A stretch of DNA of 64,000 nt, from NCBI RefSeq assembly GCF_000247475.1, contig NZ_AHZC01000430.1, positions 1 to 64,000 of the forward strand. Direction: 5' to 3'. Below are positions 51,152-53,887 of this stretch, in pieces. A program made the translations under genes and the position numbers. This stretch comes from Rhizobium sp. PDO1-076. Its GTDB lineage: Bacteria; Pseudomonadota; Alphaproteobacteria; Rhizobiales; Rhizobiaceae. Below the pieces are notes generated by a model that saw nothing but the letters and a program-made list of their open reading frames with translations, did no database searches and had not been told where the DNA came from. Position 1 is the first letter of the stretch. Each line of letters begins with the position of its first letter.

Positions 51152-52252
51152 TCAGGCAAGCGCCGGGTAGGTCGTGTAGCCCTGCTCACCGCCACCATAG
51201 AGCGTGGATCCATCCAGCTCGTTGAGTGGCGCTTCTTCCTTCAGGCGACGAACCAGATCGGGGTTTGCGATGAATGGCTTGCCGAAGGCGACGACGTCGG
51301 CATAACCGCTTTCAACGGCTTCGATCGCCGTTTCGCGGTCATAGCCGTTGTTGACCATCCAGACACCCTTGCCACCCTTGGCGCGGTAGGCTGCCTTGAG
51401 GGCTGCCCAGTCGAAGGGCAGAACGTCACGTGGGCCGCCGGTCGCGCCTTCGACGACGTGGATGAAGGCCAGGTCATGGGCCGCCAGCTTCTCGACCAGG
51501 GCCGTGTAGACAGCCGTCGGATCGGGATCGGATACGTCATTGGCTGGGGTGGTCGGCGAAATGCGGATGCCGGTGCGACCGCCGCCGATTTCCTTGGCTA
51601 CGGCTTCAGCCACTTCCACAGTCAGGCGGATACGGTTGTCAATCGAGCCGCCATAGGCGTCCGTGCGCTGGTTGCTGCTGGAGCGCATGAACTGCTCAAG
51701 CAGATAGCCGTTGGCAGCGTGGATCTCGACGCCGTCGAAGCCGGCATCGATCGCGGCACGGGCGGCCTTGCGATAGTCTTCGAGCAGGCCCGGAATCTCG
51801 TTCAGTTCCAAGGCGCGGGGTTCTGACGTTTCGGCAAATGCGCCGGTGCCATCGGGGTTGAGGATATAGGTCTTGGACTTCGCCTGGATCGCAGACGGGG
51901 CGACAGGCTTTCCACCGTCCGGCTGAAGCGAGGTGTGGGAAATTCGGCCGACATGCCAGATCTGGGTGACGATCTTGCCACCCGCTTCATGTACAGCGCT
52001 GGTGACGCGTTTCCAGCCTTCGATGGCTTCCGGCAGATAGAGCCCCGGCACATCCGCGTAACCCTGGCCCTGGTGGGTGATGGCCGTGCCTTCGGTGATG
52101 ATCAAGCCGGCGCCGGCGCGCTGGCGATAGTATTCGACATTGAGATCGTTGGGAACGGCGCCCGGGGAACGGTTACGGGTCAGCGGTGCCATGGCAACGC
52201 GGTTCGCTACGGCGATATCGCCCACGGTGGTCGATTGAAAAAGCTTGGACAT
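51152..52252 (-). CDS. Alkene reductase, old yellow enzyme family (NemA-like)
   Basis: 366 residues. It is an FMN barrel with MAPLTRNRSP, the substrate-binding pair in EIHAANGYLLEQF, NQRTDAYGGSIDNRIRL and GYDRETAIE. It reduces activated alkenes, nitro-esters or electrophiles such as N-ethylmaleimide with NADPH. GAGAGGT precedes the ATG. It follows an ArsR-type gene on the same strand by 64 bases, so it is probably controlled by it. Confidence 0.94.
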   Translation of the reverse strand: MSKLFQSTTVGDIAVANRVAMAPLTRNRSPGAVPNDLNVEYYRQRAGAGLIITEGTAITHQGQGYADVPGLYLPEAIEGWKRVTSAVHEAGGKIVTQIWHVGRISHTSLQPDGGKPVAPSAIQAKSKTYILNPDGTGAFAETSEPRALELNEIPGLLEDYRKAARAAIDAGFDGVEIHAANGYLLEQFMRSSSNQRTDAYGGSIDNRIRLTVEVAEAVAKEIGGGRTGIRISPTTPANDVSDPDPTAVYTALVEKLAAHDLAFIHVVEGATGGPRDVLPFDWAALKAAYRAKGGKGVWMVNNGYDRETAIEAVESGYADVVAFGKPFIANPDLVRRLKEEAPLNELDGSTLYGGGEQGYTTYPALA

Positions 52253-52316
52253 GAAACCTCTCGGGAGTTTTCCAATGATGGGGAGGAAAGCGCATTGGAA
52301 TTTCTCATTTGGGGTC

Positions 52317-52604
52317 TCAAAGCTTGCTGTTCAAGTCCTGGATAAATTCGGAAATGCTCTGTTCGTTGCGACGATACAGGACGCGTTGTCCTACTCGCTT
52401 CGAGGCAATCAAGCCAGCGCGCTGGAGTGTCGCGAGGTGGGCAGAGACCGCTGATTGCGACAGGCCCGAGCGTTCGAATTGTCCCGCACTGATGCCTTCC
52501 GAGGCTTCCTCTCGTGCGACGCCGAAATATTCGAGCGGATCCTTCAGCCAGATGAGCATTTCCAGTCGCGCCGGATGGGCCAGCGCTTTCATGACGTCTT
52601 CCAA
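52317..52604 (-). CDS. ArsR-family transcriptional regulator
   Basis: 95 residues: KALAHPARLEMLIWLK, then the recognition helix LSQSAVSAHLATLQRAGLI and wing SKRVGQRVLYRR. No Cys metal-site pair is visible, so it likely senses another cue. The start is TTG 52604 with GAGGAG eight bases upstream. It lies just upstream of the old yellow enzyme gene, and candidate operators lie ahead of it. Confidence 0.88.
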   Translation of the reverse strand: MEDVMKALAHPARLEMLIWLKDPLEYFGVAREEASEGISAGQFERSGLSQSAVSAHLATLQRAGLIASKRVGQRVLYRRNEQSISEFIQDLNSKL

Positions 52605-52633
52605 AGAGATTTCTCCTCAGTGTATGTTACGAA

Positions 52634-52664
52634 AGTCAAATAGGGGATTATTGACTATCGTCAA
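52634..52664. promoter_or_regulatory. Possible operator upstream of ArsR gene
   Basis: AGTCAAATA (from 52634) and TATTGACT face each other, and TTGAC-TATC-GTCAA lies at 52651-52664. These short dyads sit 30-60 bases before the TTG start and would suit an ArsR dimer controlling its own operon. Confidence 0.45.
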
Positions 52665-52738
52665 GTTTGTAGATTGCCAAAGGCGGGAGGTTGAACGCAA
52701 GCGGCAATGCCGCCAGACAGATCACTTAAAATTTTGGC

Positions 52739-52857
52739 AAAAAAAGAGGGCCACTGGAAAAATCCAGGGCCCTTTAAAGTGTGAAGGTCAAAAACCTCCA
52801 GAGGGGAACAGCTGCTGCGGTGGAACTGGGAGGAAAAAGCCACCATATGCATCAGCT
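52739..52857 (-). ncRNA. Small RNA, AbcR-like (alpha-r15 family)
   Basis: No protein gene lies here, but a complete sRNA unit can be read on the minus strand. It starts near 52857, seven bases past a -10. A long first stem, GCTG.TGC...GGTGG paired with CCACC...GCAGCAGC, exposes a loop with TTCCTCCCAG, an anti-Shine-Dalgarno sequence. A small CCTCTGGAGG hairpin follows. It ends in an AGGGCC.CTGGA-type stem and seven T at 52745-52739. The length of about 119 nt, the CUCCC loop, and the position between an ArsR gene and lsrB all fit AbcR sRNAs, which repress ABC-transporter mRNAs with Hfq. Those loci usually carry two copies; I see one. Confidence 0.75.
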
Positions 52858-52879
52858 GAGTGCGATATGGTGGTTTTTT
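52840..52879. repeat. Inverted repeat spanning the sRNA start
   Basis: CCACCATAT (52840-52848) and ATATGGTGG (52865-52873), followed by TTTTTT on the + strand. One arm overlaps the sRNA -10 and the other lies inside its first stem. It could be a binding site or a weak terminator. Confidence 0.5.
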
Positions 52880-52892
52880 GTGCAGTGAACAA
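52864..52892 (-). promoter_or_regulatory. Promoter of the AbcR-like sRNA
   Basis: Minus strand: TTGTTC (52892-52887), a 17-base spacer, and CATATC (52869-52864). Transcription should begin near 52857. The upstream 80 bases run into lsrB and would hold any activator site. Confidence 0.55.
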
Positions 52893-52972
52893 TGCTTTTT
52901 TGTGCATGTCAGGCATGCGTCAAGCGCAGGCCTTAACTTTTCAGCCTGAAAACGACTGCATTGCTTGGCTGA

Positions 52973-53869
52973 TCAGAAGTTCCAGTTGCGCGCCTTGGCG
53001 ACGATGAAGTCACGGAAAGCCTTGAGTTTTGCCGCGTTCTTGATCTCGTCCGGGTAGCAGAAATAGGTGTCGAAGGATGGAATGTCGGCGGGGATGGCCA
53101 ACTGGACCAGACCCGGATCGCGGCCGACAATATAGTCCGGCAGCATGGCGATGCCGATGCCGAGAAGGCAGGCGCGCTTGATCGATGTCTGGCTGTTGAT
53201 CTGAAGATGCGGCATGCGGGCATTGTCCGACGAGCGGCCTGCCGTTTCGAGCCAGTTGACATCGAGCAGGTAGTTGGGCGCCGGCTCGCCGAAGGAAATG
53301 ATCTTGTGGCTGTCCAGATCCTCGATCGACTGCGGTTCGCCGTAGCGGTTGATATAGGATGGCGCGGCATAGACGTGCATGTGCACGGTGAATAGCTTGC
53401 GCTGGATCAGGTCCGACTGCTGTGGCTGGCGCAGGCGAATGGCGCAGTCGGCATGACGCATGTTGACGTCCAGTTCCTCGTTGTCGAGGAGAAGTTGGAT
53501 CGACATGTCCGGATAGAGTTGCAGGAATTCCTGCACCTTGTCGGTGAGCCATCCCTGACCGAGGCCGACGGTGGTAGTGACGCGCAGCTTGCCGCTCGGC
53601 TTCTCCGTCGTCTCCGTCAGTTGCATCTTGACGGTCTGCAGTTTGAGCAGGACGTCATGGGCGGTGCGATACAGAAGTTCGCCCTGTTCGGTAAGGATGA
53701 GGCCACGGGCATGGCGATGGAACAGCTTGACGCCGATGTCCTGCTCCAGCGCCGAGACCTGGCGGCTGATCGCGGACTGCGACAGATGAAGCTTGTCGGC
53801 TGCATGGGTGAAGGACCCGGCCTCAGCGGCCGAGTGGAAAATACGCAGCTTGTCCCAGTCCAGCGGCAT
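52973..53869 (-). CDS. lsrB: LysR-family regulator LsrB/VtlR
   Basis: 298 residues. The LysR HTH is DKLRIFHSAAEAGSFTHAAD...LSQSAISRQVSALE, followed by an effector domain with Cys near 142 (HADCAIR), 234 (KRACLLG) and 271 (FCYPDE), which could sense redox. The genomic place, between trxB-lrp and the AbcR-like sRNA, is that of rhizobial lsrB, needed for symbiosis and LPS, and Brucella vtlR, which activates abcR. Start ATG 53869 has GAGGGGG upstream. It begins 18 bases after the trxB stop. Confidence 0.9.
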   Translation of the reverse strand: MPLDWDKLRIFHSAAEAGSFTHAADKLHLSQSAISRQVSALEQDIGVKLFHRHARGLILTEQGELLYRTAHDVLLKLQTVKMQLTETTEKPSGKLRVTTTVGLGQGWLTDKVQEFLQLYPDMSIQLLLDNEELDVNMRHADCAIRLRQPQQSDLIQRKLFTVHMHVYAAPSYINRYGEPQSIEDLDSHKIISFGEPAPNYLLDVNWLETAGRSSDNARMPHLQINSQTSIKRACLLGIGIAMLPDYIVGRDPGLVQLAIPADIPSFDTYFCYPDEIKNAAKLKAFRDFIVAKARNWNF

Positions 53870-53887
53870 GCCGCCCCCTCTCATCGC

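Follow-up and report, generated by a model that had tools for sequence, protein, structure and literature searches.

The analysed DNA is a stretch of 64 kb (the window), and the element considered here lies on its minus strand, in the gap between lsrB, whose end at 52973 adjoins the promoter side of the element, and a gene for an ArsR-family regulator. This gap is fully assembled and, read from lsrB toward arsR, comprises the following features:

52973..53884, minus strand: lsrB/vtlR, encoding a LysR-type regulator that is predicted to activate the RNA; position of the start codon uncertain (open frame; best segment 93-100% identical across 80 named loci)
52906..52918, minus strand: LsrB/VtlR box GCAT-GCC-TG-ACA-T, that is GCATGCCTGACAT, at -61 to -49 (perfect consensus; published position)
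52887..52892, minus strand: -35 element TTGTTC (sequence)
52864..52869, minus strand: -10 element CATATC, at -12 to -7 (sequence)
52834..52873, minus strand: inverted repeat CCACCATAT...ATATGGTGG followed by TTTTT, a possible lsrB terminator (fold)
52739..52857, minus strand: small RNA of ~119 nt, assigned to AbcR1 (alpha-r15) (Rfam RF02345 match; fold z -4.18)
52810..52857, minus strand: SL1, the 5' hairpin, with a 16-nt loop (minimum free energy structure)
52828..52835, minus strand: aSD1 seed UUCCUCCC inside the SL1 loop; CUCCUCCC in S. meliloti (sequence; published motif)
52801..52808, minus strand: aSD2 seed UUCCCCUC, unpaired in the SL1-SL2 linker and identical in S. meliloti (sequence and fold; published motif)
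52782..52800, minus strand: SL2 hairpin (minimum free energy structure; consensus hairpin in 37 aligned copies)
52739..52773, minus strand: SL3, intrinsic terminator with U7 tail, stem 52773-52747 (minimum free energy structure; covarying pairs in 37 aligned copies)
52317..52604, minus strand: gene for an ArsR-family regulator, following the RNA (open frame; all 80 named lsrB loci, the best 80 of 494, have an arsR homolog downstream)

AbcR (alpha-r15) RNAs are a family of bacterial small RNAs that damp nutrient-uptake genes. The element belongs to this family: the RF02345 (ar15) covariance model matches the minus strand from 52857 to 52742 over its entire length (model positions 1-112 of 112) with 118 bits and an E-value of 2.6e-24, nearly three times the gathering cut-off of 40 bits, which bears out the AbcR-like identity proposed in the first-pass annotation. 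It is the sole match listed at gathering scores across the window (one overlapping match of the same clan was omitted by the search). The 5' end at ~52857 is placed by this match rather than by mapping. As the annotation had described, the minus strand carries a -35/-10 pair, here separated by a 17-nt spacer, and a terminator with seven T residues that together delimit a unit of ~119 nt. A promoter and terminator scan of 52000-53600 listed neither the AbcR1 promoter nor any terminator, a miss that is probably explained by the bulged terminator stem and the weak hexamers.

The RNA folds considerably better than expected from its composition, with a minimum free energy of -43.7 kcal/mol against a mean of -29.3 (sd 3.4) for 200 dinucleotide shuffles of the RNA, only one of which was as good (z -4.18). 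The predicted structure contains three stem-loops, including the intrinsic terminator, and leaves two anti-Shine-Dalgarno seeds unpaired: aSD1 within the SL1 loop, in agreement with the long stem and exposed seed loop noted earlier, and aSD2 in the segment linking SL1 and SL2. The S. meliloti AbcR1/2 seeds occupy the same two positions (CUCCUCCC for the loop and UUCCCCUC for the linker; PMC8844928, section 8); aSD1 differs from the published seed by one base and aSD2 is exact. In an alignment of 37 copies the terminator base pairs are maintained by two-sided changes, and consensus folding of this mixed alignment did not recover SL1. The location also agrees with published loci, as the first-pass annotation had anticipated in placing the RNA between the ArsR gene and lsrB: in S. 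meliloti the AbcR RNA locus has lsrB on one side and an ArsR gene on the other (PMC3712013), and A. tumefaciens has the order vtlR, AbcR RNA, arsR, with VtlR binding and activating the abcR1 promoter (PMC7486931). The RNA is thus an ordinary member of the alpha-r15/AbcR family, an RNA class that is already known.

The same annotation had stated that the unit contains no open frame. This holds only in part, given that a 63-codon ATG frame runs from 52852 to 52661 on the minus strand, and one could propose that the stretch codes for a small protein through this frame. However, the frame starts within SL1 and passes through the terminator. In relatives the SL1 loop differs by one or two bases; such changes would put the sequence out of frame, whereas the RNA structure is conserved. 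For this reason we do not read the frame as a gene, and we regard a coding function as extremely improbable.

In S. meliloti, the abcR1 promoter contains an experimentally tested LsrB box, GCAT-N3-TG-N3-T, at -61 to -49 (PMC8844928, section 5), and a perfect copy of this box lies at 52918-52906, exactly -61 to -49 relative to 52857. Because the perfect box stands at the published distance and lsrB is adjacent, we call the retained copy AbcR1 on its sequence features. A perfect box at -61 is not a constant feature: in the window genome and its genus it is found in 23 of the 35 first copies linked to lsrB and is missing from 12. Among tandem loci, first copies have a perfect box in 48 of 59 cases and a box with one mismatch, which can arise by chance, in the other 11; second copies have a perfect box in 27 of 59, one mismatch in 11 and none in 21, and 31 of the 59 match a CTTG-type promoter. 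Since 27 second copies have a perfect box, the box alone cannot separate AbcR1 from AbcR2 in every group.

It might then be asked whether the RpoH1-driven, stress-induced AbcR2 type was retained and AbcR1 lost. AbcR2 transcription in S. meliloti depends on RpoH1 (PMC8844928), only one copy is left at the locus, and the AbcR1 and AbcR2 sequences are alike in the species that have been studied. Nevertheless, all 22 single-copy loci have a perfect upstream LsrB box and none of the 22 matches the CTTG-N-CxATA promoter; lsrB is adjacent, as it is for A. tumefaciens AbcR1; and the second copies are those that often have the CTTG-type promoter (31/59) or lack even a one-mismatch box (21/59). We therefore give the retention of AbcR2 practically no credence and treat the copy as AbcR1. 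In the tandem loci whose second copy has a perfect box, among them L039, L046 and others of the R. tropici group, LsrB may control the two copies alike, in place of a division between LsrB and RpoH1. A further unlinked alpha-r15 class (L136-L140) lacks the LsrB box and has a shortened 5' hairpin, and several of its members show CTTG before a CCATAT-like -10 element.

The inverted repeat that spans the -10 element and the 5' arm of the RNA raises a different issue. Its fold is strong (-18.4 kcal/mol, z -5.8) and is followed by T5, so that the hairpin 52873-52840 with its T-run could be read primarily as the terminator of lsrB, with the RNA signal representing mostly lsrB 3' UTR rather than a transcript from its own promoter. 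Against this, the box, -35 and -10 elements are placed as in the experimentally tested promoter, and the RNA ends in a terminator of its own and matches the family model in full. Further, a perfect -61 box is present in 19 of 24 unlinked copies that have no lsrB in the fetched flanks (a set drawn from 18 genomes with flanks of up to 1.5 kb, excluding the weak other-family matches L142-L144). The terminator scan, without any site in 52000-53600, is neutral in this respect. Covariation of the arms, too, is absent: across 81 loci, 475 pairs were counted compared with a shuffle mean of 473.4, and 119 of 2000 shuffles were as good, which led us to reject the nested terminator as a conserved element. 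Taken together, an origin of the signal in the lsrB 3' UTR appears very unlikely, and an RNA transcribed from its own promoter is the reading that we carry forward.

Within the clade, pairing of the arms CCACCAT / ATGGTGG is complete, counting G-T pairs, in 20 of the 22 single-copy loci, and the repeat at 52834-52873 in the window has T-runs on either strand and could terminate in both directions. A nested terminator that ends lsrB transcripts is accordingly a clade-level possibility, to which we give low weight because the arms do not covary across the 81 loci. A fuller version of this idea, which we consider rather doubtful, is that the AbcR system at lsrB in this clade consists of one LsrB-driven RNA whose promoter and 5' arm incorporate the lsrB terminator; readthrough transcripts of lsrB would then either stop at the T-run or sequester the SL1 arm, and only RNA started at 52857 would be active. 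If this were true, AbcR1 would be a redox (LsrB) output insulated from the transcript of its own activator.

The original survey of alpha-r15 RNAs, as cited in PMC3712013, is quoted there as reporting that genomes "always" have multiple copies. The draft assembly studied here (5.5 Mb, 441 contigs, 94% complete) contains one RF02345 match and one motif site, upholding the earlier proposal of a single copy. A divergent, hidden second copy was sought and rejected: a whole-assembly search for the family-wide motif, tolerating one mismatch, recovered only the window site, and a family search to an E-value of 1 returned only one match. An unlinked or plasmid-borne copy could be missing from a draft assembly. 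Among same-genus genomes, 34 of 35 have a match and nine have exactly one; when rechecked at laxer settings, each of the nine kept one match over the cut-off. One genome (G006) showed a second, weak match of 26.9 bits, below the cut-off of 40, and in another (G020) the motif occurs a second time, with a single mismatch. Weak matches at E-values up to 1 mean little, because 8 of 14 control genomes match at this level too, none of them over the cut-off. Other families of the order gave weak matches in 3 of 24 sampled genomes, all below the cut-off. The printed rule of multiple copies is thus contradicted by the draft and the nine same-genus genomes, each with one match over the cut-off, and since these nine genomes share the single match we do not treat multiple copies as defining the family.

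A wider count at the family level (f1, 101 genomes) points in the same direction, less cleanly, and is not relied upon here: 66 genomes have a match over the cut-off and 35 of these have exactly one, many of them weak (40-60 bits), and strict filters drop weak second copies. Counted at an E-value of 0.001, 40 of 76 genomes of the family have one match. In genome G007 a second match falls below the cut-off, and in G116 the exact motif occurs twice.

The gene neighbourhood of lsrB allows the single-copy state to be placed on a tree. We compared 80 named lsrB loci, the best of 494 and thus the nearest kin of the window locus rather than a random sample. All 80 have an alpha-r15 motif between lsrB and the arsR homolog; 21 of these best 80 have a single copy and 59 a tandem pair. 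In a tree of lsrB DNA with 81 rows, built by a quick method, rooted at the midpoint and with SH-aLRT as its only support measure, the 21 single loci and the window form one branch (SH-aLRT 96, one change), and the rows nearest to it are tandem. The median lsrB-arsR gap is 371 bp in single loci vs 582 bp in tandem loci, ~210 bp or about one unit shorter. Because the single-copy loci form one branch and its nearest outside rows are tandem, the simplest reading of these sequences is that the second tandem copy was probably lost once in this clade. The clade-wide state, one copy where many relatives have two, is mildly unusual and is the sole mild surprise of the locus. Literature searches on alpha-r15 and AbcR turned up no account of the single-copy clade, although the original survey and the 2018 AbcR review could describe it.

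Copies of the RNA also occur away from lsrB. Several unlinked copies are flanked by two recurrent reading frames, and PLSDB contains matches to the RNA in 377 of its 72,556 records, of which 274 are typed conjugative, with some of the listed records several megabases long and chromosome-sized. Among five records that were inspected, three have the copy flanked by a large helicase/methylase gene and a ParB-type gene, two of these three with one or two additional small genes in the interval; one has it near a ParB-type gene with different neighbours, and one is an ordinary trxB-lsrB-arsR locus. Three of the five have a perfect LsrB box, and the other two, judged by eye, deviate from it by one base. 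The helicase/methylase-ParB copies (L146:6001-6113, L147:5001-5116 and L148:5001-5115) lie on conjugative MOBQ/MPF_T plasmids; the box at -61 is perfect in L147 and L148 and one base off, by eye, in L146. Those conjugative-plasmid copies that retain the box hint that the host's regulator may be exploited by mobile elements; the occurrence of alpha-r15 genes on plasmids was noted before, in the legend to a figure of PMC3712013. One further match (MT838570.1:1653-1732), in a 5.1-kb record with the label "Bacteriophage sp.", covers 68% of the RNA with 88% identity; this record may be a mislabelled host contig. An RNA of another family, alpha-r14 (NfeR1-type, RF02344, 107.7 bits at L188:230-352), occurs at G000:C17:136-352 (L188:136-352) with a perfect LsrB-type box upstream at L188:136; an extra CCTCCTCCC hairpin ahead of the RF02344 match implies that this alpha-r14 RNA may have four hairpins. 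NfeR1 is under LsrB control in S. meliloti (PMC10746234).

We are highly confident that the element is an AbcR1 small RNA, from a member of the Rhizobiaceae close to Rhizobium sp. 18065 and R. rhizophilum, predicted to be LsrB-activated and Hfq-stabilised and to silence through its anti-Shine-Dalgarno seeds, in a lineage that probably lost AbcR2. By analogy with the studied relatives, LsrB/VtlR, the product of the gene just upstream, would bind the -61 box and activate transcription from the sigma-70 promoter; the ~119-nt RNA would be bound and stabilised by Hfq, for which a gene is present in the genome; and aSD1 and aSD2 would pair with the ribosome-binding sites of nutrient-uptake mRNAs, blocking their translation. 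With the tandem AbcR2 lost, the locus would retain LsrB input only, and the clade may have lost the stress input along with that copy.

Target pairing was examined in 28 substrate-binding-protein genes of this genome, comprising 7 Peripla_BP_6 genes over the cut-off (3 weaker ones dropped) and 21 SBP_bac_5 genes. Duplex energies, compared with those of 55 open reading frames with a called start, favour aSD2 (p 0.007); aSD1 pairing is not enriched (p 0.75), and the better of both seeds gives a weak p of 0.059. The aSD2-complementary motif AGGGGAA/GGGGAAC precedes a possible start in 6 of 28 genes vs 0 of 57 window open reading frames (Fisher p 0.0009, an optimistic value because the motif was picked after seeing the duplex energies, with starts called by rule). 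GGGGAA, in a test likewise set after the energies, gives 6/28 vs 1/57 (p 0.005), and AGGAG 5/28 vs 3/57 (p 0.07). The aSD1 motif GGGAGG shows no enrichment (2/28 vs 1/57, p 0.25), so that neither energies nor motifs show a target enrichment for aSD1. The aSD2 result fits aSD2-based silencing as in S. meliloti, without amounting to proof.

These results extend a well-studied regulator to a clade that has received less study, one in which the printed multiple-copy rule fails, and species with one copy offer natural single-input AbcR networks that would be useful for asking what a stress-driven AbcR2 adds. Among the closest known counterparts, S. meliloti AbcR1 (SmelC412, RF02345) is alike in its three stem-loops, its aSD1 and aSD2 seeds, its box at -61 to -49 and its site between lsrB and the ArsR gene. 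However, aSD1 reads UUCCUCCC here and CUCCUCCC there, and S. meliloti has a tandem AbcR2 and three homologs in all, whereas this draft genome has one. A. tumefaciens AbcR1, under VtlR, has the same gene order, but the tandem abcR2 described there is absent here. Some genomes of the genus have additional unlinked copies elsewhere, none of which was seen in this assembly. The single-copy relatives (Rhizobium sp. 18065, R. rhizophilum, and Peteryoungia and Ciceribacter loci) share with the window the same lone RNA at lsrB, with the same box and the same neighbours.
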